Of a stretch of DNA of 11,456 bases, positions 1 through 11,173 are shown in pieces; the first letter of the stretch is position 1, and the number at the start of each line of letters is the position of its first letter. This DNA is from Fidelibacterota bacterium. Its GTDB lineage: Bacteria; Fidelibacterota; Marinisomatia; SCGC-AAA003-L08; D37C17. Position numbers and translations under genes: made by a program. The stretch covers positions 1 to 11,456 of the forward strand of contig DTTG01000067.1 in assembly GCA_012964845.1 (NCBI GenBank), written 5' to 3'. The notes beneath the pieces were generated by a model that ran no database searches, was not told where the DNA came from, and saw nothing but the letters and a program-made list of their open reading frames with translations.

Positions 1-567
1 GGTAATTACCCCAATATCAGTTGACCCGGTGATACCGTAAAGGATGCTCAGTCCAAACAACATTAAGCCGGAAGCAAAGGAGCCGAAAATTACATATTTC
101 AGCGATGCTTCATTGGATTCTTTATCATTCTTCAGCATTCCTGCCAGTATATACGATGGAATACTCACCAATTCAATGGAGAGATAAATCATGATGAGAT
201 TGATTGAGGATGACATGAGAAACATGCCCAGCAGAACGATTAACAGCAGGGCATTATATTCAGCTGAATAATTTTTGTCTAACTGTTTTTCATAACGGGA
301 TATGAGAATAATGGAAAAAGTACTAAGCAAAAATATCATTTTAAAAAAATGAGAAAAAGGGTCAATACTGATCATCCCCATAAACAAGCCATGAGATTCA
401 CCATAACTCTGCCAGAGGAAAACACTTGCCAATAGTATAGCGCCCAGGGATAGAGAGAAGGTATATTTCTTACAAGCAGGAATTACATCCAATACGATCA
501 CCAGCAAAATAGCTGAAATAATAATCAGTTCGGGAATATAATATGATAGACTGCTGAGGTTCGACAT
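1..567 (-). CDS. nuoN: NADH-quinone oxidoreductase subunit N, N-terminal part (cut by window edge)
   Basis: This is the start of an antiporter-like membrane subunit of complex I, which contributes one proton-translocation channel in the membrane arm. Translating the minus strand from the ATG at 567-565 gives 189 uninterrupted codons to the window edge, beginning MSNLSSLSYYIPELIIISAI. Several hydrophobic helices are visible. Residues 126-142 contain IYLSIELVSIPSYILAG, whose Glu132 matches the conserved channel glutamate of the family. Residues 155-183 contain SLKYVIFGSFASGLMLFG and an ITGSTD ending, a NuoN hallmark, with a conserved Lys157. The start lies 11 nt after the nuoM stop and follows a good ribosome binding site (GGAG in the gap). 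It is the last visible gene of the operon, matching the usual nuoL-M-N order. Family length is about 450-500 aa, so more than half lies outside the window. Confidence 0.96.
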   Translation of the reverse strand, partial: MSNLSSLSYYIPELIIISAILLVIVLDVIPACKKYTFSLSLGAILLASVFLWQSYGESHGLFMGMISIDPFSHFFKMIFLLSTFSIILISRYEKQLDKNYSAEYNALLLIVLLGMFLMSSSINLIMIYLSIELVSIPSYILAGMLKNDKESNEASLKYVIFGSFASGLMLFGLSILYGITGSTDIGVIT

Positions 568-578
568 TTCCGTCTCCG

Positions 579-2150
579 TTAAATTACGGATTGTACGATT
601 TTAATGATTCCATCCATTGCCGGGCTGATCATATCCAATAATGGCGCCGGATAGACCCCTAAGAATAAAATGAGTACTGCCAATGGAATTAAGGTAAACA
701 GCTCCCGGTGGCTGATATCCGTTAAATCTTTATAGGTTTCATTAAGTGGTCCCAGGAAGATTCTCTGATAGGCTCGTAAAAAGTAAATGGCATTCAGCAG
801 AATCCCTAAAGTACCAATAATGGTTAAGGTGCGGAAAACACTGAAACCGCCGATAAAACACATGGCTTCACTGATAAAGCCTGAAAGGGCTGGCAGCCCA
901 AGTCCGGCAAAAAATGCAAAGGCCACAAAAGCTGTATAAACCGGAACCTTAGCACCTAATCCGCCAAATCCCTGCTGGCCGGCTAATTCCGGCTTTTCAT
1001 AATCATTGGGGAATACTATCCAACGATGATGAGCTCTATCATATAACATGCCAACCAGCAAAAACAACATTGCCGTAATGGTTCCATGGTTAAACATCTG
1101 CATGAGAGCGCCATTCATTCCAGCTTGGGCACCGGCAGGGCTGTCACTGATGGCAGCAGCCATTCCCAATAGCACGTAGCCCATATGACTCACAGAGGAA
1201 TAGGCAACCATCTTCTTCATGTCAATTTGGGCAATGGCATTGGTAGCGCCCCAGATTATGTTAATTACTCCCAGCACTGCCAGAATATAGGCAAAGTTTA
1301 CCACCTCACCCGGCAGCAAGGGGTAACTGATTCGCAGGAGTCCATAGGTACCCATTTTCAACAATACACCCGCAAGGATGACTGAAATGGCTGTGGGCGC
1401 CTCCACATGCGCAAGGGGCAGCCAGGTATGAAAGGGAACAATGGGAACTTTTATGGCAAACCCAATAAACAGGGACATCCAAATGAGATATTTAACGCTT
1501 AAACCCCAGATAGTGGCATCAATACTGCCTACTGTATGAATGAGTGTAATAAGGCTGAATGTATGCGGATCGGAGTAATAATACAATGCCAGCAATGCTA
1601 AGAGCATAAATACGGATCCAAATAAGGTATAGAGGAAGAACTTAATGGCAGCATACATTCGCTGTGGTCCGCCCCAGATACCGATGAGAAAATACATGGG
1701 CAGCAGCATGACTTCCCAGAATATGTAAAAGAGGAAGAAATCCAGAGATAAAAACACACCCATCATTCCGGCATCCAATAGGAGAAAAAGAGAAAAGTAA
1801 CCTAATGGCTGTTTATCAATTTTCCAGCTGGAAATGATGCAGATAAAAGACAAGAGAGCTGTTAATAAAACCATGGGGATACTTAAACCATCTACACCTA
1901 AAAAGTACTGGATGTTAAAATGTTTTATCCATTCTAATTGTACGGTAAATGGTGATTCAGTGACGCTTAGGGCGGGATCAAAATTAAGATATAATATACC
2001 AGCCAGGACCAGCTGAATACCGGTTGTAATTGCAGCAATCCATTTATAATAATGGGCATTTTCTTTTCCGTACAGCATAGCAAAAGGCAGCATTAAAACT
2101 GCTCCGGCTACGGGTACAAATATCAACAAGGTGAGTATTGACGATTCCAT
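579..2150 (-). CDS. nuoM: NADH-quinone oxidoreductase subunit M (proton-pumping antiporter-like subunit)
   Basis: This is the second antiporter-like subunit of the complex I membrane arm, an integral membrane proton channel. The protein is 523 aa and very hydrophobic, close to the usual ~500 aa. Visible family landmarks are FWEVMLLPMYFLIGIWGG (144-161) with channel Glu146, FAIKVPIVPFHTWLPLAHVE (231-250) with Lys234 and His241, GVLLKMGTYG (261-270) with Lys265, AYSSVSHMGY (316-325) with His322, MFNHG (352-356) and GFISEAM (424-430) with Glu428. All charged residues expected for proton transfer are present. A loop at residues 377-395 is roughly 14 residues longer than I recall for E. coli NuoM. 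The ATG at 2150 follows a clear ribosome binding site (GAGGAT), 12 nt after the nuoL stop. It is part of the co-transcribed nuo operon. Confidence 0.98.
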   Translation of the reverse strand: MESSILTLLIFVPVAGAVLMLPFAMLYGKENAHYYKWIAAITTGIQLVLAGILYLNFDPALSVTESPFTVQLEWIKHFNIQYFLGVDGLSIPMVLLTALLSFICIISSWKIDKQPLGYFSLFLLLDAGMMGVFLSLDFFLFYIFWEVMLLPMYFLIGIWGGPQRMYAAIKFFLYTLFGSVFMLLALLALYYYSDPHTFSLITLIHTVGSIDATIWGLSVKYLIWMSLFIGFAIKVPIVPFHTWLPLAHVEAPTAISVILAGVLLKMGTYGLLRISYPLLPGEVVNFAYILAVLGVINIIWGATNAIAQIDMKKMVAYSSVSHMGYVLLGMAAAISDSPAGAQAGMNGALMQMFNHGTITAMLFLLVGMLYDRAHHRWIVFPNDYEKPELAGQQGFGGLGAKVPVYTAFVAFAFFAGLGLPALSGFISEAMCFIGGFSVFRTLTIIGTLGILLNAIYFLRAYQRIFLGPLNETYKDLTDISHRELFTLIPLAVLILFLGVYPAPLLDMISPAMDGIIKIVQSVI

Positions 2151-2162
2151 ATTATCCTCTAA

Positions 2163-4223
2163 TTAAAATTGTTGAATTAAAATAATGAGCAGCAAAGCTC
2201 CCAACATTCCGCCAAGGAGGTAGTTCTGCACCACACCATTTTGAGTTGATTTCAAAGTCTTACCAAAATATTGAGTAATTTTCCCAAGTCCGTCCACCAC
2301 TTTTTGATCCAGCCAGTTATAATCTACCTCGGCGGATTTATCCGAAAGTTTGATAGTGAGCCAGCCCCAGCCATCTATAAATTTCTGATCATAAACATCC
2401 CAATCAAGTTTTGAGCATAACCAGGATAGTGCCAAAAAGGGTTTGTAAATAATGATATTGTAAATTTCATCAATATAGAATTTGTTAAAAGAAAGATTGT
2501 AGAGCTTTAATTTATTTGCCATGCCCGCTATTTTAGCCGCATCCACTTTTCTTAAGAGATAAAAGAGAATAGCCAGCAGAATACCAATAGTTGCTACGGT
2601 CAAGGAAATTCCCATGGCTGTATAATGGGCATGATGAATTCCCTCCTCAACCGCATGCATATCCAATCCAGCCACATTTTCTATCATGGGGACTGCCTCA
2701 GTAAACCAGCCGTGGTTATCCAGAGGATTAACGGAAAACGGCACCGTAAAGAATATAGCGAAACTCAATCCTGCCAGCAGAATGAGGGGAAAGGTCATCT
2801 GGAAAGGTGATTCATGGATATGGGCATAAACTTTATCATTGGCAGGCTTTCCAAAAAAGGTGAGGAAGATTAAGCGGAACATATAAAAAGCCGTAATGAC
2901 TGCAGCGCCAAATCCGGCAATGGGCAGAAAGAGCGTCCAACCATGGTGTAAATGGTAATAAGATAAAGTACCGGCCAAGATTGCATCCTTAGATAAAAAG
3001 CCGGAGAAGAAGGGTACACCCGAAATAGCCAGAGTAGCAATGAGCATTGTCCAGAAGGTTATGGGCATTTTATCACGCAATCCACCCATATTGTTCATAT
3101 CCTGAGGATCAGTTTCATGGTCATTAAGTTCATGGAGAGCATGGTGCATGGCATGGATTACAGAGCCACTGCATAAAAAGAGGCAGGCTTTAAACATGGC
3201 ATGAGTGGTTAAATGGAAGAATCCGGCTTGATATGCGCCAACCCCAAGAGCCATAATCATATATCCCAACTGGCTCACCGTAGAGTATGCCAATACGCGC
3301 TTGATGTCATTTTGAGTGATAGCGATGATAGCCGCCATGATTGCGGTAATTCCCCCTACCACTGCAATAAATTCTAATGCCCCTGGTGTCAGTATTGGGA
3401 AAATCCGCACCACCATATACACCCCGGCTGCCACCATAGTTGCCGCATGGATTAGGGCGCTGACTGGCGTAGGGCCTTCCATGGCATCCGGCAGCCAAAT
3501 ATGCAGGGGAAACTGGGCAGATTTACCTACTGCGCCCATAAATACCAAAATCCCTGCAATGGTCAAGAGACCCATATTCCCGGCAAAAGCGCCATTGCGA
3601 ACACCATCAATTAATCCATCAATCTGGAAAGTACCGATGCTGAAGAAAAGAATCATAATACCGATGAACATGCCGATATCCCCTACCCTGTTGGTGAGGA
3701 AGGCTTTTTTGCAGGCATCAGCGGCGCTGTTTTTTTCAAACCAGAAGCCAATTAAAAGATAAGAGCTTAAGCCAACCAATTCCCAAAATATGTACATCAT
3801 TATGAGATTATCAGCCAGTACAATGCCGTTCATAGAAAAGGTAAATATTCCCAAATATGCAAAATAACGTGAATACCGAGGATCGCCTTTCATGTAGCCC
3901 ACCGAATAAAAATGCACCAGAAAGGATATAAGAGCCACTACCAAAAGCATAATTGCTGCTTCATTATTGATAAGAAAACCCAGGTTTACGCTGAAACTTC
4001 CGGTACTAAACCAGCGGACGGATGTTTCTAAAATTGGCTGGCCTGTATCTACGAATACATTGGCGAAAAAACTCACGGCGATACCCAGCGAACCGCCAAT
4101 CAGGGCTAAGGCTACCCAATGGGCAGAATTGCCAATTTTCTTGCCAAAAAATATGAGAATCACAAAGGATAAGAGCGGTAAAAACAAATTAAGTAAAGCC
4201 AGAGTTGTAGAATAATTATCCAT
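2163..4223 (-). CDS. nuoL: NADH-quinone oxidoreductase subunit L (distal proton-pumping subunit)
   Basis: This is the largest antiporter-like subunit, at the tip of the membrane arm. The 686 aa length fits the NuoL type with a C-terminal lateral helix. Visible landmarks are IFWELVGLSSYLLIGFW (145-161) with Glu148, VGKSAQFPLHIWLPDAMEG (232-250) with Lys234, SALIHAATMV (255-264) with His259, THAMFKACLFLCSGSVIH (340-357) with Lys346, and GFLSKDAILAG (408-418) with Lys412. Residues from about 560 to 660 are polar and amphipathic, as expected for the long lateral helix that straps the arm, and a final membrane helix occupies about 663-684. A His/Asp/Glu-rich insert follows at 357-373, and another short His cluster lies at 523-533. 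The ATG at 4223 is 2 nt after the nuoK stop, with the ribosome binding site (AAGGGAT) inside the nuoK end. Confidence 0.98.
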   Translation of the reverse strand: MDNYSTTLALLNLFLPLLSFVILIFFGKKIGNSAHWVALALIGGSLGIAVSFFANVFVDTGQPILETSVRWFSTGSFSVNLGFLINNEAAIMLLVVALISFLVHFYSVGYMKGDPRYSRYFAYLGIFTFSMNGIVLADNLIMMYIFWELVGLSSYLLIGFWFEKNSAADACKKAFLTNRVGDIGMFIGIMILFFSIGTFQIDGLIDGVRNGAFAGNMGLLTIAGILVFMGAVGKSAQFPLHIWLPDAMEGPTPVSALIHAATMVAAGVYMVVRIFPILTPGALEFIAVVGGITAIMAAIIAITQNDIKRVLAYSTVSQLGYMIMALGVGAYQAGFFHLTTHAMFKACLFLCSGSVIHAMHHALHELNDHETDPQDMNNMGGLRDKMPITFWTMLIATLAISGVPFFSGFLSKDAILAGTLSYYHLHHGWTLFLPIAGFGAAVITAFYMFRLIFLTFFGKPANDKVYAHIHESPFQMTFPLILLAGLSFAIFFTVPFSVNPLDNHGWFTEAVPMIENVAGLDMHAVEEGIHHAHYTAMGISLTVATIGILLAILFYLLRKVDAAKIAGMANKLKLYNLSFNKFYIDEIYNIIIYKPFLALSWLCSKLDWDVYDQKFIDGWGWLTIKLSDKSAEVDYNWLDQKVVDGLGKITQYFGKTLKSTQNGVVQNYLLGGMLGALLLIILIQQF

Positions 4224-4225
4224 AA

Positions 4226-4534
4226 TTATCCCTTTAGAAGATCAGCATCATCTACATCAACGCTGCCAACATTTTTAAATAAATTTATGACAATTGCCAG
4301 CGCAACTGCCGCTTCGGCTGCAGCCAAAACAATAACAAATATACTGAATACATGACCGTCTAAATTGGCCATTCCGCCAAAACGGTTAAATGCGATAAAA
4401 TTGATATTGGCGGAATTGAGAATCAGTTCAATCCCCATGAGGATAGCCACTGCATTTTTCCGGGTGATGACACCGTATATTCCCATGGAAAATAATATTG
4501 CTGCAATAATGAGATAGGATTGTAAGGAATCCAT
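4226..4534 (-). CDS. nuoK: NADH-quinone oxidoreductase subunit K
   Basis: This is a small three-helix membrane subunit (homologue of mitochondrial ND4L) that links the quinone-site region to the antiporter-like subunits. The protein is 102 aa, the standard length. Both conserved buried glutamates of the family are present: Glu36 in GIELILNSANIN (34-45) and Glu74 in AAAEAAVALAIVINLF (71-86). The first helix spans about residues 5-24. The start ATG overlaps the nuoJ stop by one base (TAATG at 4536-4532), so translation is probably coupled; a GAGG lies about 9 nt upstream. The stop is 2 nt from the nuoL start. Confidence 0.98.
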   Translation of the reverse strand: MDSLQSYLIIAAILFSMGIYGVITRKNAVAILMGIELILNSANINFIAFNRFGGMANLDGHVFSIFVIVLAAAEAAVALAIVINLFKNVGSVDVDDADLLKG

Positions 4535-5019
4535 TAGGTGCGCCTCGATAATAAGGCTGCGCCCATGAGGGCTGCCAACAGTAAAATTGAAATAATTTCA
4601 AAGGGCAGCAGGTATTCGTTTAATAATAGATAGCCAATACTGGCTACAGTGGAATCCCGACTTTGCTCAGTACCAATATGCCAAGGGGTATTAAAAATAA
4701 CGGATACCTGTATGACAAAAATTGAAAATGCCCCCATGCCGCCAATAAACTGGTTCTTGCTGCTGGCAGCTATGCTGGGGGTATCAATGCGGTTGGTGAG
4801 CATTACACCAAAAATTATCAAGACCAGAATGCCTCCAACATAAATCACAACCTGGGTAGCAGCGATAAAATCTGCATAGAGAAAAATATATAATCCGGCG
4901 GTACTAAAGAGGGTGAATAATAATGATACAGCAGAATGAATTAAATTTGGCGAGAATACTACCCAGAAAGCAGATGCAATAACCAAAGCAGCGATGATTA
5001 AAAAGAGGTTCTCAGCCAT
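4534..5019 (-). CDS. nuoJ: NADH-quinone oxidoreductase subunit J
   Basis: This is a membrane subunit (homologue of mitochondrial ND6) with five predicted helices, located between the quinone chamber and the pumping subunits. The protein is 161 aa, typical for bacterial NuoJ. The conserved helix-3 block is visible as DFIAATQVVIYVGGILVLII (50-69), including Tyr60 and the Gly-Gly bulge region known to change conformation in turnover. The C-terminal helix LPFEIISILLLAALMGAALL (138-157) followed by SRR is characteristic. The ATG overlaps the nuoI stop in TAATG (5021-5017). This proves that the unusually long nuoI frame ends exactly at nuoJ and is not followed by a missing gene. Confidence 0.97.
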   Translation of the reverse strand: MAENLFLIIAALVIASAFWVVFSPNLIHSAVSLLFTLFSTAGLYIFLYADFIAATQVVIYVGGILVLIIFGVMLTNRIDTPSIAASSKNQFIGGMGAFSIFVIQVSVIFNTPWHIGTEQSRDSTVASIGYLLLNEYLLPFEIISILLLAALMGAALLSRRT

Positions 5020-6494
5020 TAATTTCCACTCTCCAGATTATTGAGAATTGCAGCTGTGGCATCATCCAACTTGCCAGCCTCTGTTAAACCAGCACGGAGA
5101 TCAGCAATGACTTCTGTTCTTGATTTGTCAGCCCTCTTCCCTGCCATATAGATTTTCTTGGCCATGCCGCGAGTCATCTTATCATCAATACCATTCAGTT
5201 CAGCAATCTCAAACAGTGGCAAATCTTCTGCAGGCTCTGATGCGGCTAGCGATTCTGCTGCAGCTTCTTCAGTGGGTTCGGCTGTTTTTTCCACAGCAGT
5301 AGGCTGGGAAGGTTCTGCGGCAGCACTGGTAAATGAATTTAGCAATTTTTCAGCAGCTACATCTAATTTTCCAGCATCGCCAAGCGCTTTACGGACAGCC
5401 TCAACTTTATCTTCACCAGATCGTTTAGCAGCAAGGAATGCTTTTTTAGCAGTCCCTCTGGCCATTTTATCTTCAATAACATTAAGGTCTTTTATATCGA
5501 ATTCTTTTACTTCTGTAGTTGGTGGAACTTCAGCAACACTTTCCGCTTTAGTAGCTCCCTCTGTTTCCACTACTGGCGTAACTGCTTCTGGTGATGGCGC
5601 TGATAATCCATCTAAAATAGACTGGATATCTTCAGTCATTTTTCCGGCATCACTGAGGGCTTGGGCTACATCAGCCAAAATAGCGGTTGTATCTTTACCG
5701 GCACGCTTGGCAGCCATAAAGGCTTTTTTGGCGATACCCCGGCACATTTTATCAGCAATGCCATTTAAGGACTTGATATCAAACTCACCACCGAGGGGTT
5801 TTACAGCAGTAACTGGTTTGGCAGCTGCAGTACCTGTTTCTAGCACAGGCGCGGCAACTTGCACTGGAGTTGCTTCCGGCACAATGCCCATTAATTCTAC
5901 ACCTTCAGAATTCTTTTTTAATTTTGCATCCCGCTGTTCCAGCCATTTATCACCGCCGGCATCACGGATCATATCATCAGTGGCATCGGCAAACTCAAAT
6001 ATCATCCCGTCCCGTTTATACTGACTGAATTCGTAATCAATTTCATGTTTTTCTGCATTAGGGCCGCCCACCATATAAATACATTCTTCAGGGCAAGGGA
6101 AAACACAGAGATTGCAGTACATGCACTCCGACATGTCAATGGTAAAACGGCTCACAATCATTTTTTTCTGAGTATCATTTGAAGTGATACCGCAATCCAC
6201 ATCACTATCCTTGGGAGGCTTTATGAAATCAATTTTGATGCAATCAACAGGGCAGAACTTTTCACATTGCATACAAGAGATACAATCATCAATATCAACG
6301 TGCAGCCGGGAGCGGATGAGGTTGTACTCCGCATGGTCAAAACCAATATTACGTTCCGGAATGGGCCACTTTTCATGGGGATACTGCAGAGTGGCAACCC
6401 GTTCCTTCTTATTATTAAAATGATCCAGAGTAAGTTTCATACCGGTGAGAAATGATTTTACTCCATATATAATATTGCTAAAATATTCACTCAT
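5019..6494 (-). CDS. nuoI: NADH-quinone oxidoreductase subunit I with a long C-terminal triple-repeat extension
   Basis: Residues 1-200 are a standard NuoI, the peripheral subunit that carries two [4Fe-4S] clusters passing electrons toward cluster N2. There is an amphipathic N-terminus (GMKLTLDHF, 18-26), a first cluster motif with Cys71, Cys74, Cys77 and Cys81, a second with Cys124, Cys127, Cys130 and Cys134, and the typical tail YKRDGMIFEFADA (159-171). NuoI is usually about 130-230 aa; here the frame runs to 491 aa. From about residue 206 it becomes Ala/Pro/Val/Glu/Thr-rich linker holding three diverged Lys/Arg-rich modules at 238-297, 332-388 and 428-487. I do not recognise this module. 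The ATG abuts the nuoH stop (TAA|ATG) with only a weak ribosome binding site, and the stop overlaps the nuoJ start (TAATG). The core identity is certain; the role of the extension is unknown. Confidence 0.95.
   Translation of the reverse strand: MSEYFSNIIYGVKSFLTGMKLTLDHFNNKKERVATLQYPHEKWPIPERNIGFDHAEYNLIRSRLHVDIDDCISCMQCEKFCPVDCIKIDFIKPPKDSDVDCGITSNDTQKKMIVSRFTIDMSECMYCNLCVFPCPEECIYMVGGPNAEKHEIDYEFSQYKRDGMIFEFADATDDMIRDAGGDKWLEQRDAKLKKNSEGVELMGIVPEATPVQVAAPVLETGTAAAKPVTAVKPLGGEFDIKSLNGIADKMCRGIAKKAFMAAKRAGKDTTAILADVAQALSDAGKMTEDIQSILDGLSAPSPEAVTPVVETEGATKAESVAEVPPTTEVKEFDIKDLNVIEDKMARGTAKKAFLAAKRSGEDKVEAVRKALGDAGKLDVAAEKLLNSFTSAAAEPSQPTAVEKTAEPTEEAAAESLAASEPAEDLPLFEIAELNGIDDKMTRGMAKKIYMAGKRADKSRTEVIADLRAGLTEAGKLDDATAAILNNLESGN
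5034..5213 (-). repeat. NuoI extension module, repeat 3 (residues 428-487)
   Basis: This third module forms the very C-terminus of NuoI, only four residues before the stop. It opens with FEIAELNGIDDKM, continues TRGMAKKIYMAGKRADKS and closes with GLTEAGKLDDATAAILNNL. It is the same length as repeat 1 with no gap. It is separated from repeat 2 by an acidic Ala/Glu/Pro/Ser linker (about 389-426). Conserved in all three copies are the LN, DKM, RG, AKK, KR and AGK positions. Confidence 0.85.
5331..5501 (-). repeat. NuoI extension module, repeat 2 (residues 332-388)
   Basis: This is the second module. It opens with FDIKDLNVIEDKM, continues ARGTAKKAFLAAKRSGED and closes with ALGDAGKLDVAAEKLLNSF. 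It aligns with repeat 1 along its whole length apart from a three-residue deletion just before the ALGDAGK segment. Although the AKKAFxAAKR stretch is almost identical in protein to repeat 1, many synonymous codon positions differ (for example GAG/GAA, TTT/TTC, AAG/AAA, CGT/CGA). The duplication is therefore old and kept by selection on protein, not a recent DNA slippage event. Confidence 0.85.
5604..5783 (-). repeat. NuoI extension module, repeat 1 (residues 238-297)
   Basis: This is the first of three homologous ~60-residue modules in the NuoI tail. It opens with FDIKSLNGIADKM, continues CRGIAKKAFMAAKRAGKD and closes with ALSDAGKMTEDIQSILDGL. The shared pattern is F-[DE]-I-x2-LN-x-I-x-DKM-x-RG-x-AKK-x3-A-x-KR, then an Ala/Leu helix, AGK and a final hydrophobic turn. 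It looks alpha-helical and basic in the middle. It is the only copy with a cysteine (Cys251). It is preceded by a Pro/Ala/Val/Thr-rich linker (about 205-236). Confidence 0.85.
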
Positions 6495-7595
6495 TTAAAA
6501 AATCAGTTCCCATAAACTCACTAAAAATAGATTGGCCAATGCAAATGGAATAAAGACCTTCCAGCAGAGATACATGAGTTGGTCTACTCTTAAACGGGGG
6601 AAAGTCCAACGAAACCACATCATAATAAAAATGAGAATAACTGCTTTAAATAGTACCCAGAACAACCCAATTGCCGGGCCATCTAATATAAGCCAGGAAT
6701 CGGGGAAAATATTGAATATCTGCAAGGGAGATAACCAGCCGCCAAGGAATACAATAGAAGCTACAATACTGACGATAAGCATGTTGGCATACTCACTCAA
6801 AAAGAAAAGCGCCCATCGGAATCCGGAATATTCCGTCATCCAACCTGCCACCAATTCTGATTCAGCTTCCGGTATATCAAAAGGAGTACGGTTGGTCTCC
6901 GCAATTGTTGAAATATAGAAAATAAAAAAGGCTAAAAAGGTAAAAGGACTGTGAAAAATAAACCAGCGATGGTCAGCCTGCCATTGAACAATATCACCTA
7001 AATGTAAACTTCCAGCTACAAGCACAACTAAAAGCAAAGACAAACCAATTGGAATTTCATAACTGATAATCTGAGCTGCAGCCCGCATAGATCCATACAA
7101 GGACCATTTATTATTGGAAGACCATCCAGCAAGAATGACACCGATAACACCAATGGAACTCATGGCAAAAATATAAAAAATACCTATATTAAAATCTGAA
7201 ATAACAATATTTTGGGCAAAAGGAAGGCCAATAAATGTAAGAAATGCTCCTGTAAAAATAATAAATGGGGCAAGAATCATTAAGAATTTATCTGCATTAT
7301 TGGGGAGAATATCTTCTTTCACTAATAGCTTTATGGCATCAGCAAGCGTTTGGCCAATACCACCCCAAAACTTCTTCCCACCCTTAAAGCCAAATATTCC
7401 CACTTCCATGGGACCTAACCTGTCCTGCATGAAGGCGGATATTTTTCGTTCAAAATAGACAGCTATGAGAGCGTTGACGGCCATAATTAAAAATATTACG
7501 GTTCCGCCTATGAGGGTAATAACTGGCAGCAAAACTGCTATATCCAGATTAAAGGATGAAAAAGATTTTACCAATGAATCGACAATGGATGTCAT
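6495..7595 (-). CDS. nuoH: NADH-quinone oxidoreductase subunit H
   Basis: This is the membrane subunit (homologue of mitochondrial ND1) that forms most of the quinone-access chamber and joins the peripheral arm to the membrane arm. The protein is 366 aa with about eight or nine hydrophobic helices. Family signatures are ERKISAFMQDRLGP (49-62), GQTLADAIKLLVKED (81-95), IAETNRTPFDIPEAESEL (231-248) with the conserved acidic loop lining the quinone cavity, EYSGFRWALFFLSEYANM (255-272) and RWTFPRLRVDQLM (329-341). All look intact. The ATG at 7595 overlaps the nuoD stop as ATGA, so translation is coupled. nuoE, nuoF and nuoG would normally sit between nuoD and nuoH and are absent. Confidence 0.98.
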   Translation of the reverse strand: MTSIVDSLVKSFSSFNLDIAVLLPVITLIGGTVIFLIMAVNALIAVYFERKISAFMQDRLGPMEVGIFGFKGGKKFWGGIGQTLADAIKLLVKEDILPNNADKFLMILAPFIIFTGAFLTFIGLPFAQNIVISDFNIGIFYIFAMSSIGVIGVILAGWSSNNKWSLYGSMRAAAQIISYEIPIGLSLLLVVLVAGSLHLGDIVQWQADHRWFIFHSPFTFLAFFIFYISTIAETNRTPFDIPEAESELVAGWMTEYSGFRWALFFLSEYANMLIVSIVASIVFLGGWLSPLQIFNIFPDSWLILDGPAIGLFWVLFKAVILIFIMMWFRWTFPRLRVDQLMYLCWKVFIPFALANLFLVSLWELIF

Positions 7596-8731
7596 CTGTC
7601 AATTTCTCCCAGAACAATATCCAGACTGCCTAAAATAGCGATGACATCAGATATCATCCATCCCTCAGCAATTTCACTGAGGACTGATAGATTACAAAAT
7701 GCCGGGGAACGCATTTTCACTCGCAACGGAATATTCTTGCCATTACTGATAATGTAAAAACCTACATCTCCACGAGCCGATTCGTATCTGCCATAAACTT
7801 CCCCCACTGCAGGCCGTATCTTTTTCGGTATTGCCTCATGCACATCTCCATCAGGAAGCTGGGCACAGGCCTGGCGGATAATTTTAGCTGACTCCCGCAT
7901 CTCCAGCACTCGGACATAATAACGATCCCAAGTATCCCCTATTGTACCCATTGTGCCCTCACCCAGCGGCACATCAAAATCAAATTTATCATAAATGGAA
8001 TATGGCTCATTTTTTCGCAGATCCCAATTAACTCCACTACCACGGAGGCTGGGACCGGTAACACCGAAATTGATTCCCACATCCGGTGGAAGAACACCTA
8101 CATCTCCGGTGCGTTCAATAAATATTTTATTGGTACTCAACAGGTTATTAAATTCATCAATCTGAGGGTCAAAGTAATCCAGGAAATCCAGAGTTCTCTC
8201 TACAAACTTGGGCGGTAAATCGTGGGATACACCACCAGGCCAGATATAATTATAGAGCAGGCGTGCACCACAGAGGGCTTCAAATAAATCCAGGATTCTT
8301 TCCCGGTCACGGATGGCCCAGGTAAAGGGGGTTATTGCGCCTACATCCAAACCAAATGTACCCAGGGCAACCAGGTGGCTGGCAATGCGCTGTAATTCTG
8401 CAATGATAACCCTGATATATTCCACTCGCTCCGGAAGTTCAACATCCAATAATTTTTCAACGGCGATTGAAAAGGCATGATCCATGTGCATGGATGCAAG
8501 ATAGTCGCAACGGTCTGTAAAGGGAACAATTTGCTCATAAGATAAATATTCACAGTGTTTTTCAAAACATCTATGGAGATAACCAATAACTGGTTCTATT
8601 TTGGATACGATTTCTCCATCGGTGTGAATTTTCAAACGCAATACACCATGAGTACTGGGATGCTGAGGCCCCATATTCAGCACCATTTCGCCCGTTTCCA
8701 ACACCGATTTAGCTATGGCTTGTTCTTCCAT
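7592..8731 (-). CDS. nuoD: NADH-quinone oxidoreductase subunit D (49 kDa-type)
   Basis: This is the peripheral-arm subunit that, with NuoB and NuoH, forms the quinone-reduction site next to cluster N2. I prefer the ATG at 8731 (379 aa), which sits in a TAATG overlap with the nuoC stop; a TTG at 8740 would add three residues (MGL) and is less convincing. Numbering from the ATG, GPQHPSTHG (21-29) contains the conserved quinone-site histidines, CDYLASM (75-81) holds the conserved Tyr, SARGDVGFY (318-326) is the Arg-Gly-Asp-type motif, and the end GSLDIVLGEIDR is the classic C-terminus. It is a separate gene, not fused to nuoC. Length is close to the usual ~380-410 aa. Its 3' end overlaps nuoH by 4 nt. 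Confidence 0.97.
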   Translation of the reverse strand: MEEQAIAKSVLETGEMVLNMGPQHPSTHGVLRLKIHTDGEIVSKIEPVIGYLHRCFEKHCEYLSYEQIVPFTDRCDYLASMHMDHAFSIAVEKLLDVELPERVEYIRVIIAELQRIASHLVALGTFGLDVGAITPFTWAIRDRERILDLFEALCGARLLYNYIWPGGVSHDLPPKFVERTLDFLDYFDPQIDEFNNLLSTNKIFIERTGDVGVLPPDVGINFGVTGPSLRGSGVNWDLRKNEPYSIYDKFDFDVPLGEGTMGTIGDTWDRYYVRVLEMRESAKIIRQACAQLPDGDVHEAIPKKIRPAVGEVYGRYESARGDVGFYIISNGKNIPLRVKMRSPAFCNLSVLSEIAEGWMISDVIAILGSLDIVLGEIDR

Positions 8732-9216
8732 TAATCCCAATATGTTTTGTCTTTAGGTACAGGCATACCACGATAGTAATCCGGTTCCTTGTAATCTTTC
8801 CGCAGCGGATACCCATCCCAATCTTCAGATAGTAAAATTCTCTTCAAGTTGGGATGACCCTCAAATTGAAGCCCCATCATATCAAAAGCTTCACGCTCAT
8901 GCCAGTCCGCCGCCTGCCATAAGCTGGTGACAGAGGGGATTGCTGTGCCGTCTTCAGTTTCCACCCTCACTTCCAAATAGTGGTTAATGGTAGTGGAAAA
9001 TAAATTATAGGCTGCACCATAAGTCTTGTTATCGCCTTTATCATAGGAGGAGATGCACATGAGATAGTCAAAATCAAGTTTAGATTCATTTTTCAGCAAA
9101 GTGGAAATTTCAACCCAATTATCAGGTGAGACCAAAATAACCTCTTTCCCTTCAATTATGGAGGATTTACCAGCAGCTTTCGTTTCTACAAATTTTATAA
9201 TATCAGCAAAGGTCAT
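8731..9216 (-). CDS. nuoC: NADH-quinone oxidoreductase subunit C (30 kDa-type)
   Basis: This is a peripheral-arm scaffold subunit (homologue of mitochondrial NDUFS3) that packs against NuoD and NuoB and binds no cofactor. The protein is 161 aa. The diagnostic C-terminal signature is complete: WHEREAFDMMGLQFEGHP (105-122) followed by LKRILLSEDWDGYPLRKDY (124-142). The tail (EPDYYRGMPVPKDKTYWD, 144-161) is short, so this is the compact form of NuoC. The ATG at 9216 is one base after the nuoB stop (TAATATG), with an AGGAAGAAGG ribosome binding site inside the end of nuoB. Confidence 0.97.
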   Translation of the reverse strand: MTFADIIKFVETKAAGKSSIIEGKEVILVSPDNWVEISTLLKNESKLDFDYLMCISSYDKGDNKTYGAAYNLFSTTINHYLEVRVETEDGTAIPSVTSLWQAADWHEREAFDMMGLQFEGHPNLKRILLSEDWDGYPLRKDYKEPDYYRGMPVPKDKTYWD

Positions 9217-9217
9217 A

Positions 9218-9712
9218 TTAGGCCTTCTTCCTGAGGGGAGTCTCAGTTTTGATTTTCTTCTGGAGTTCTAACAATCCCTGTAAAAGCGCTTCAGGACGGG
9301 GTGGACAACCAGGGACATACACATCAACGGGTACTACTAAATCAACACCCTTGAGTACATGGTAGCCATACTGCCAGTAAGGACCCCCACTATTGGAACA
9401 GCTTCCCATGGAAATGACATATTTAGGATCGGACATTTGTTCAAATAATCGTTTTACCCGTTCTGCCATTTTTAAAGTAACTGTGCCGGCTACAATCATC
9501 ACATCAGATTGCCGGGGTGATGCTCTGGGCATGGCGCCAAAGCGTTCCAGGTCATGACGAGGGGCAGCTGTTGCCATCATTTCAATAGCACAGCATGCCA
9601 GGCCAAACTGGAAATACCACTGTGAATTAGCGCGAGACCAATTAATAAGGTCATCTAATTTTTCAACTACAATATTGTCCTTGTCAAATCTCTCTAATAA
9701 CGTAGCATCCAT
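9218..9712 (-). CDS. nuoB: NADH-quinone oxidoreductase subunit B (cluster N2 subunit)
   Basis: This subunit holds the terminal [4Fe-4S] cluster N2, which reduces quinone. The protein is 164 aa, standard for the family. All four N2 ligands are visible: the tandem pair Cys40-Cys41 in [12 protein letters not shown] (36-47), Cys105 in [16 protein letters not shown] (102-117) and Cys136 in [17 protein letters not shown] (131-147). The conserved [20 protein letters not shown] segment (57-76) is intact. The ATG at 9712 shares one base with the nuoA stop (TGATG) and is preceded by a strong ribosome binding site (AAAGGAG, 9723-9729) about 10 nt upstream. Confidence 0.98.
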
Positions 9713-10134
9713 CAGCTTGTTTCTCCTTTAGATTGTAGATTAGCATAGCGCCCTTTACCGTAGCGGACATTCATTTTTACCCAGTCAAGATCACCTTTGG
9801 CCCAGACATAAATAAATCCCACAACCAGAATTAATACAAAGATGAAGGCTTCAATAAAGGCCAGTAGACCTAAGTCCTGGAAAACAACTGCCCAGGGGAA
9901 AAGGAATACAATTTCAACATCAAATATGAGGAAGACGAGGGCTATGACATAAAAGCGGATGTTGAATTTAACCCAGGCTGAGCCTTCGGGGAGTTCACCA
10001 CATTCATAGGATATGAGCTTATCGCCACCCTTATTTTTTCTTGGAGAAAGGAGGTATTGCAACCCAAGTGGTACTCCAATGAGTACGGCTGCTAAAACGG
10101 TGAATATTATTATAGGTAAAAAGTCTTGATACAC
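9712..10134 (-). CDS. nuoA: NADH-quinone oxidoreductase subunit A
   Basis: This is a small three-helix membrane subunit (homologue of mitochondrial ND3), the first gene of the operon. The protein is 140 aa. The first helix spans about 5-28. The mobile loop with [10 protein letters not shown] (42-51) contains the conserved cysteine-bearing motif, followed by [20 protein letters not shown] (58-77) with the conserved acidic pair Asp72 and Glu74, then FPWAVVF (79-85). The start is a GTG at 10134 with no obvious ribosome binding site. No ATG nearby would fit as well, and the length before the first helix matches the family, so GTG is the best choice. A perfect 13-bp dyad ends 8 nt upstream of it. 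Confidence 0.96.
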
Positions 10135-10258: not shown

Positions 10259-11173
10259 ATGCAGATGATTAAAAGCATTTTTAACCAATTTATTATTAAA
10301 ATCACTCCCCTGCTTCCCCTCTGGATGGTTTGGAAAATTGCCGGCAGATACGTAGCTGGAGAAAGCATAGCAGATGCATTAGTGGTGATTCGTCAGTTAA
10401 ATGAAAAAGGGTATTCTGCAACGGTGGATATTTTAGGAGAGCATACTGAATCGGAATCTGAAGCAGATGAAATCACCCACGATTATTTAAAAATTTATGA
10501 CAAGATTTCTCAACAGGGTCTGGACTGCAATATCTCCATAAAGCCCAGCCATATTGGTCTGGATATCAGTAATGAAATTCTCCAAAGCAATTTGGATAAA
10601 CTCCTCAGCAAAGCAGAGGAGACTCATAATTTTTTACGCATCGATATGGAAAGCTCAGTTATAACAGATGTGACTATTTCCCTCTTTAAAAGCTGTTATG
10701 AAAAATATCAAAAAGTGGGAACTGTTTTTCAGGCATATCTGTACCGCACCCAAACAGATTTAGAAGATCTCTCTCAAAATGGTAGTTTTAATTTCCGCCT
10801 GTGCAAAGGAATTTATAAAGAACCTCCTGCAATTGCCATCCAGAGACGGCGGAAGATTAACAGTAATTTTATTAAACTTTTACGCTTTGCCTTTGAAAAG
10901 GGGATTTATGTTGGCATAGCCACTCATGATTTAGAACTATTGGAATCAGCCTATGCCCTCATTAGCGAATTCAATGTTTCTTCTGATAAATTTGAATTTC
11001 AGGTTTTATACGGCGTACCCATGTCTGGCTGGCTGGAAAAACACTTAAAGAATAACTTTAAAGTACGGGTGTATGTACCATTTGGTAAAGACTGGTACGC
11101 CTATTCTATTCGACGCTTAAAGGAGAACCCTAATATTGCCGGCTATATTTTGAAGGATTTATTCAGGAGGTAG
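10259..11173 (+). CDS. Proline dehydrogenase (monofunctional, FAD-dependent)
   Basis: This enzyme oxidises L-proline to delta-1-pyrroline-5-carboxylate and passes the electrons from FAD to membrane quinone. It is 304 aa, the length of stand-alone bacterial enzymes such as that of Thermus (about 307 aa), not a fused PutA. Family motifs appear in order along the barrel: NISIKPSHIGL (91-101), LRIDME (126-131), FQAYLYRT (157-164), LCKGIYKEPP (181-190), GIATHD (219-224), FQVLYGVP (247-254), VRVYVPFG (269-276) and YSIRRLKENP (282-291). The last contains the Arg-Arg pair that binds the proline carboxylate. No P5C dehydrogenase lies within the window. The ATG at 10259 has no clear ribosome binding site, and an ATG two codons later is also possible. 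It is divergent from the nuo operon and ends 2 nt from a convergent gene. Confidence 0.95.
   Translation: MQMIKSIFNQFIIKITPLLPLWMVWKIAGRYVAGESIADALVVIRQLNEKGYSATVDILGEHTESESEADEITHDYLKIYDKISQQGLDCNISIKPSHIGLDISNEILQSNLDKLLSKAEETHNFLRIDMESSVITDVTISLFKSCYEKYQKVGTVFQAYLYRTQTDLEDLSQNGSFNFRLCKGIYKEPPAIAIQRRRKINSNFIKLLRFAFEKGIYVGIATHDLELLESAYALISEFNVSSDKFEFQVLYGVPMSGWLEKHLKNNFKVRVYVPFGKDWYAYSIRRLKENPNIAGYILKDLFRR

Follow-up and report, generated by a model that had tools for sequence, protein, structure and literature searches.

The nuoI gene of a complex I operon from a Fidelibacterota bacterium encodes a protein in which the two-cluster core is followed by three modules of about 60 residues, set on linkers predicted to be disordered. 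The operon itself lacks the NADH module. We infer, with a probability of about one half, that this extension of NuoI serves as a flexible docking arm, recruiting an electron carrier or an enzyme that reduces such a carrier.

The nuoI frame and its operon

The window, meaning the whole stretch of DNA analysed, is one entire contig of 11,456 bases (C67) from a fragmented genome of 1.25 Mb in 251 contigs that is 76.8% complete. Most of the 80 relatives used for comparison are Candidatus Neomarinimicrobiota or Marinimicrobia, uncultured ocean bacteria. The window carries a minus-strand operon, nuoABCDHIJKLM, with a partial nuoN at the contig end (Table 1). Pfam matches identified NuoA, B, C, D, H and J; for K, L, M and N the names come from position and from the operons of relatives, without a family scan. 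The protein of interest counts as NuoI by its two 4Fe-4S motifs and by a match to the NuoI profile TIGR01971 over residues 18-148 (E 3.6e-18; 65.3 bits, below the 113-bit cut-off). Neither the open frames nor the Pfam matches of the window operon revealed nuoE, F or G. With nuoA-D and nuoH-N together and NuoEFG missing, the operon fits an 11-subunit complex I. The sole NuoF match of the window genome lies in a different operon on contig C45, which encodes a second, NuoEFG-containing complex I (L036, G000:C45). At one further locus (L039), a NuoEFG-containing and a NuoEFG-less operon adjoin.

The initial annotation had read the nuoI frame as continuing past the two-cluster core to a genuine protein end, and had named relatives stopping near residue 200, or a sequencing error, as grounds for doubt. 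The frame indeed runs on to 491 residues, and its stop overlaps nuoJ in TAATG. Four same-genus genomes encode a NuoI of 483-486 residues that aligns with the window protein over its full length; in a fifth, the frame is divided between two contig ends. Since the four frames match the window protein from end to end, the C-terminal end is genuine. None of these four stops near residue 200, and their agreement makes a sequencing error in the window unlikely.

Several other features of the window were noted. A proline dehydrogenase gene (10259-11173) adjoins nuoA, and a proline dehydrogenase-like frame, judged by eye, is found at the corresponding position in L032, L099 and L107. At the contig edge (11176-11454), the last part of a protein with a type IX secretion sorting domain is encoded. 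A 288-residue open frame on the plus strand (5158-6024) lies antisense to nuoI and is probably a by-product of nuoI composition.

Table 1. Position and basis of the complex I genes in the window and of the parts of NuoI
Feature	Position	Strand	Basis and remarks
nuoK, L, M, partial nuoN	1..4534	-	Downstream of nuoI; open frames; named by position and relatives' operon
nuoJ	4534..5019	-	PF00499, E 6.3e-37; start shares one base with nuoI stop (TAATG)
nuoI	5019..6494	-	Open frame, 491 aa, stop codon TAA (5019-5021) included; TIGR01971 match
Module 3, residues 428-489	5028..5213	-	Profile matches; AlphaFold2
Linker 3, residues 391-427	5214..5324	-	pLDDT 33-37 (residues 391-420)
Module 2, residues 332-390	5325..5501	-	Profile matches; AlphaFold2
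Linker 2, residues 300-331	5502..5597	-	pLDDT 31-38
Module 1, residues 238-299	5598..5783	-	Profile match; four helices predicted, AlphaFold2 mean pLDDT 85.4
Linker 1, residues 201-237	5784..5894	-	Ala/Pro/Glu/Thr-rich; pLDDT 31-43 (residues 201-230)
NuoI core, residues 1-180, two 4Fe-4S cluster motifs	5955..6494	-	Fer4 matches
nuoA, B, C, D, H	6495..10134	-	Upstream of nuoI; Pfam matches

Architecture of the extension

Three homologous modules on linkers had been proposed for the extension, and the analysis bears this out. The modules of the window protein are 42-48% identical in pairwise comparison and score 94.9, 74.8 and 86.9 bits (copies 1, 2 and 3) against a module profile that includes these same copies. 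Among the matches listed for the window genome, the profile recovered stretches at 5601-5783, 5328-5501 and 5031-5213. The linkers between the modules are rich in Ala, Pro, Glu and Thr and free of aromatic residues; linker 1 consists to 68% of A, P, E, T, S and V and has zero aromatic residues. In an alignment of 25 modules, K19 is invariant and D11, R15, A18, K20, R27 and L43 are nearly so. The modules had been described as basic. This applies to their first half (mean net charge +3.7); the second half is acidic (-2.7), and whole modules have a mean of +1.0 (25 modules).

AlphaFold2 modelled a single module as four compact, strand-free helices (mean pLDDT 85.4). For the whole NuoI protein the mean pLDDT was 67.3 and the pTM 0.29; some parts of the core had pLDDT values below 50. 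Ten-residue blocks of this model reached 78-96 within modules and 31-43 where they lay wholly within linkers. Thus the modules are predicted to be folded and the linkers disordered; the low pTM and the poorly scored parts of the core mean that the model does not predict where the modules lie relative to the core.

Conservation and distribution of the modules

Selection was assessed by comparing the window with same-genus genomes. The core gave dN/dS values of 0.019 and 0.018 in the two of four pairs that were computable, the G002 value resting on a dS of 3.83. The modules, in a gap-free alignment, gave 0.066-0.083 and the three linkers together 0.43-0.69 (three of four pairs each), with dS saturated in several same-genus pairs. 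These ratios point to purifying selection on the modules and to drift in the linkers, in keeping with the earlier picture of domain beads on strings, as do the predicted folded modules and disordered linkers. Modules at the same position are 68-97% identical across three same-genus genomes. One locus (L116) shows a recent additional module duplication, at 83% identity.

A search of 245 genomes of the phylum found full modules (E <= 1e-9) in 31. Thirty of these belong to the order of the window, and one carries an apparently mis-binned contig. That contig (L112), from the MAG SRR3965592_bin.3, which also holds another NuoI (L177), matches the window at 100%; it is probably mis-binned. The full-module matches listed are NuoI proteins or contig-end pieces of NuoI, save one Cys-rich protein of G005. 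Counting G020, where the copy is truncated at the end of a contig, 31 of the 41 genomes of the order carry modules, with one to five copies per NuoI. The survey of module number in related nuoI genes that had been suggested at the outset thus places the modules in one order. In the rest of the class, most NuoI frames among the matches listed span 189-220 residues. Within the order, one genome that is 98% complete (G024) has a module-free NuoI stopping at residue 207, and seven genomes have no NuoI at E <= 1e-35 among the matches listed.

Long NuoI frames of 300-368 residues also occur, among the matches listed, in genus g83 of another class of the phylum. The ten g83 genomes read, out of 17 listed, have module-free tails that are Ala/Lys-rich and acidic (L236-L241, L245-L247 and L249); G192 is listed with a frame of 333 residues. 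A short motif resembling [IV]-P-[MIV]-[ED]-[ST]-I appears, as judged by eye, to recur in the acidic low-complexity part of the tails.

Searches for a known family or fold

The initial annotation had allowed for the modules proving to be a well-described domain. They matched no Pfam family, and among PDB folds there was no clear counterpart. Pfam searches with 25 modules returned scattered weak matches to one to three members per family, the best at E 0.0009 for one member, and the best NCBIfam match of the NuoI extension was 0.019. A PDB sequence-profile search placed designed helical repeat proteins at the top, with an E of 6.8e-5 that is summed over many repeats and in which no stretch passes alone; two other weak matches covered one stretch each. 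Foldseek with the module model gave no match at E <= 0.001. The annotation had also seen no lipoyl-lysine motif. In agreement with this, the Pfam matches of NuoI and of the 25 modules include no lipoyl or subunit-binding family, those of the modules no cofactor motif, and the module model is all-helical.

A weak similarity was seen between the module profile and the tail of GatB. Over about 51 columns the score was 31.6 with 18 GatB sequences and 26.6 without the sequence that had drawn attention (L225), whereas 100 shuffles of the 18-sequence alignment reached 18.3 at most. Without L225, hhalign gave a probability of only 38%. The 17 other single GatB sequences scored 8.9-17.6, all below the shuffle maximum, and a YqeY alignment scored 9.96. 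GatB_Yqey (PF02637) is absent from the Pfam matches of the 25 modules.

The motif core on NuoC and other proteins

The first half of the module also occurs at the N-terminus of NuoC in a separate clade, where the consensus by eye is AL.GDMD.IN.IEDRVTR.KAKAALVKAKR. Fourteen stretches were inspected: three hold NuoC carriers, nine encode START-like proteins in which the core is repeated two to four times, one holds a GatB, and one is a contig end where nothing rose above threshold. The START-like carriers (L095-L098, L101, L103, L105, L106 and L108) lie outside the order; two of the four proteins scanned passed the cut-off of PF10604, and the rest were named by eye. Profile comparison with the module over 28-30 columns scored 50.4 for NuoC and 58.4 for the START-like repeats; the highest scores among 100 shuffles of each were 15.2 and 15.7. 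The value of 58.4 is inflated because a motif-derived pattern served to select the repeats; independent support for the motif in START-like proteins comes from the module profile search of the genomes (among the matches listed). The Cys-rich protein of G005 (L035:5537-6235, G005:C82) has 233 residues, ends in one full module and matches no Pfam or NCBIfam family.

Both NuoI and NuoC were recovered at 67 of the 80 loci, with modules on NuoI in 25, on NuoC in 13, on neither in 29 and on both in none. The 67 exclude nine loci without a recovered NuoC and four without a recovered NuoI (L128, L137, L149 and L151), of which L128 and L137 carry modules, as L025 and L022. The 29 loci with neither include the flavodoxin locus described below (L132) and L146, which is cut by a contig end. 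A FastTree phylogeny of NuoB, NuoD and NuoH from 71 loci, midpoint-rooted, with several weak deep nodes and with related loci that are not independent, placed the NuoI carriers (support 1.0) and the NuoC carriers (0.886) in separate groups. The NuoC group contains one apparent loss, in L169 and L173. Loci L130 and L146 are labelled as having none in this tree because contig ends cut both.

Flavodoxin domains in place of modules

In the isolate NAT62 (G007; contig NZVQ01000035.1), NuoI has 654 residues (G007:C33 / L132:6001-7962, also L027). Here the core is followed in frame by two flavodoxin domains, without modules, and nuoJ comes directly after. The protein matches PF00258 at 1.2e-43 in two stretches, which cover profile positions 1-143 and 1-122 of 143. 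The two domains are 76% identical and have net charges of -20 and -24. The genome additionally encodes a separate flavodoxin and a ferredoxin. In the tree, the NAT62 locus is the sister of a three-module locus (support 0.947) and lies inside the module clade; therefore, the flavodoxins most simply replaced modules. The fusion was found only in G007 among the 23 family genomes searched. An assembly artefact is disfavoured, as both domains share one frame within the operon and nuoJ follows directly.

Candidate carriers and donor enzymes

An oxidoreductase of the POR_N family was found in 39 of 42 relatives and in 38 of the 41 genomes of the order, the window genome included. Beside it in the window genome lie frames resembling the beta subunit of a 2-oxoacid oxidoreductase and fumarase, as judged by eye. 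A ferredoxin of about 100 residues related to that of the window genome, whose net charge is -20, is present in 28 of the 41 genomes of the order (E <= 1e-8), in a search with this single query that would miss unrelated ferredoxins. A PF00258 flavodoxin is present in 18 of the 41 (E <= 1e-3), one of them below the family cut-off, and the three flavodoxin domains measured have net charges of -20 to -27. At these thresholds, 29 of the 31 module-bearing genomes encode a ferredoxin (24) or a flavodoxin only (five more). The other two, G013 (80% complete) and G018 (93%), have neither. POR_N was likewise not detected in G018, which may count against the carrier reading or reflect missing sequence. 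The module-free genome G024 also has neither carrier at these thresholds, in favour of the carrier reading. Yet four POR_N matches are kept there, and it is thus no clean case of co-loss. The same type of module is found in genera with only ferredoxin and in those with only flavodoxin, and thus does not point to one particular cargo.

Proposed function of the extension

NuoI is the complex I subunit that would receive electrons first when the NADH module is absent. The arm would thus sit at the electron-entry end of a NuoEFG-less complex I. Each compact four-helix module would act as one binding unit, and the linkers would give several such units freedom to move about the first NuoI cluster. 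The likeliest cargo would be a very acidic carrier in its reduced state, or the 2-oxoacid oxidoreductase from which that carrier receives its electrons; ferredoxin may be the carrier in the window's genus, and flavodoxin in some of the related ones. Such an arm would concentrate the donor close to a complex that lacks the NADH module.

The flavodoxin replacement, the motif on a neighbouring subunit and the acidic nature of the carriers lead us to favour a donor-recruiting arm. Docking of acidic carriers had been suggested at the outset on account of basic modules. The NAT62 flavodoxins, the missing NADH module and the carriers in 29 of 31 genomes are consistent with such docking; the part that did not stand is the simple charge argument, as the modules are bipolar, and related motifs occur outside complex I. 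Against docking also count the lack of a known redox role for the START-like proteins, the Cys-rich G005 protein, the near-neutral modules, the exceptions G013, G018 and G024, and the restriction of the fusion to one genome. More tentatively, NuoI may form a multivalent donor station that holds several ferredoxins or flavodoxins, with the NAT62 fusion identifying flavodoxin as a natural donor of an 11-subunit complex I.

The arm could instead be structural, stabilising the open apex of the peripheral arm at the place of NuoG or joining complexes. In E. coli, NuoI likewise has a lineage-specific extension at the same end of the subunit, which is ordered and braces the peripheral arm (PMC8357420). 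According to the same source the E. coli extensions of NuoB, NuoI and NuoF are ordered and comprise 22-45 residues, whereas that of the window NuoI spans about 290 and consists of modules and linkers. Long predicted-disordered linkers, a variable copy number and one relative without modules fit poorly with a fixed brace, and we regard this explanation as improbable. A somewhat better case, still an unlikely one, can be made for a general adaptor, through which NuoI or NuoC and the START-like protein would bind a common scaffold or lipid surface in a respiratory patch. The motif core common to all three would follow from it, and at L096 and L103 the START-like gene adjoins apparent genes for Rieske protein, cytochrome b and haem A synthesis, judged by eye. 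However, no respiratory neighbour was recognised by eye at the other seven START-like loci inspected, full modules (E <= 1e-9) within the order are, among the matches listed, on NuoI and the one G005 protein, and the replacement by flavodoxin in NAT62 would be left unexplained.

We consider it very unlikely that the basic helix of the arm serves to contact nucleic acid or the translation machinery. The tail domain of GatB contacts tRNA, and both the basic first half of the module and the weak GatB similarity above the shuffle maximum would agree with such a role. However, the hhalign probability falls to the low value given above once the picked sequence is left out, none of the other single GatBs exceeds the shuffle maximum, and the net charge of the module is near zero. 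We know of no precedent for nucleic-acid binding by a complex I arm.

Comparison with known systems

The E2 subunits of 2-oxoacid dehydrogenases also carry their domains on Ala/Pro-rich linkers, and the extension had been likened to their swinging arms. The likeness lies in the arrangement of domains on linkers; the all-helical module differs, and no lipoyl or subunit-binding family was matched in Pfam. The analogy suits the flavodoxin-bearing version of NuoI better, the modules being without a matched cofactor motif.

In Epsilonproteobacteria, the carriers of complex I are separate proteins and the donor enzyme is a 2-oxoacid:acceptor oxidoreductase, whereas here modules or flavodoxins lie within the NuoI chain. 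Feeding of the epsilonproteobacterial complex by flavodoxin or ferredoxin is cited in PMC6143742 and PMC11238625. In photosynthetic NDH-1, NdhS, NdhV and NdhO at the apex near NdhI aid ferredoxin binding (PMC7021789). These are separate small subunits, unlike the modules in the NuoI chain, and NdhS has an SH3-like fold (PMC7021789), whereas the module is predicted to consist of four helices without strands and thus would not be NdhS-like.

A Marinimicrobia complex I without the NADH module has been named nNDH, with flavodoxin proposed as a possible donor (Getz et al. 2018, PMC6143742). The NADH module is thus missing both there and in the 11-subunit complex I. The main text of that paper is without the word 'extension', and no mention of a NuoI or NuoC extension or of a flavodoxin fusion was found in it. 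No published description of the NuoI arm or of the fusion was found in the open-licence literature searched. PMC11238625 treats the identity of the direct donor to the 11-subunit complex I as an open question.

In summary, the NuoI module is a conserved protein unit covered by no Pfam family. Flavodoxins in the place of the modules hint at how a NuoEFG-less complex I may be fed with electrons, and the flavodoxin-bearing NuoI of NAT62 offers a concrete, testable candidate donor for the 11-subunit complex I.
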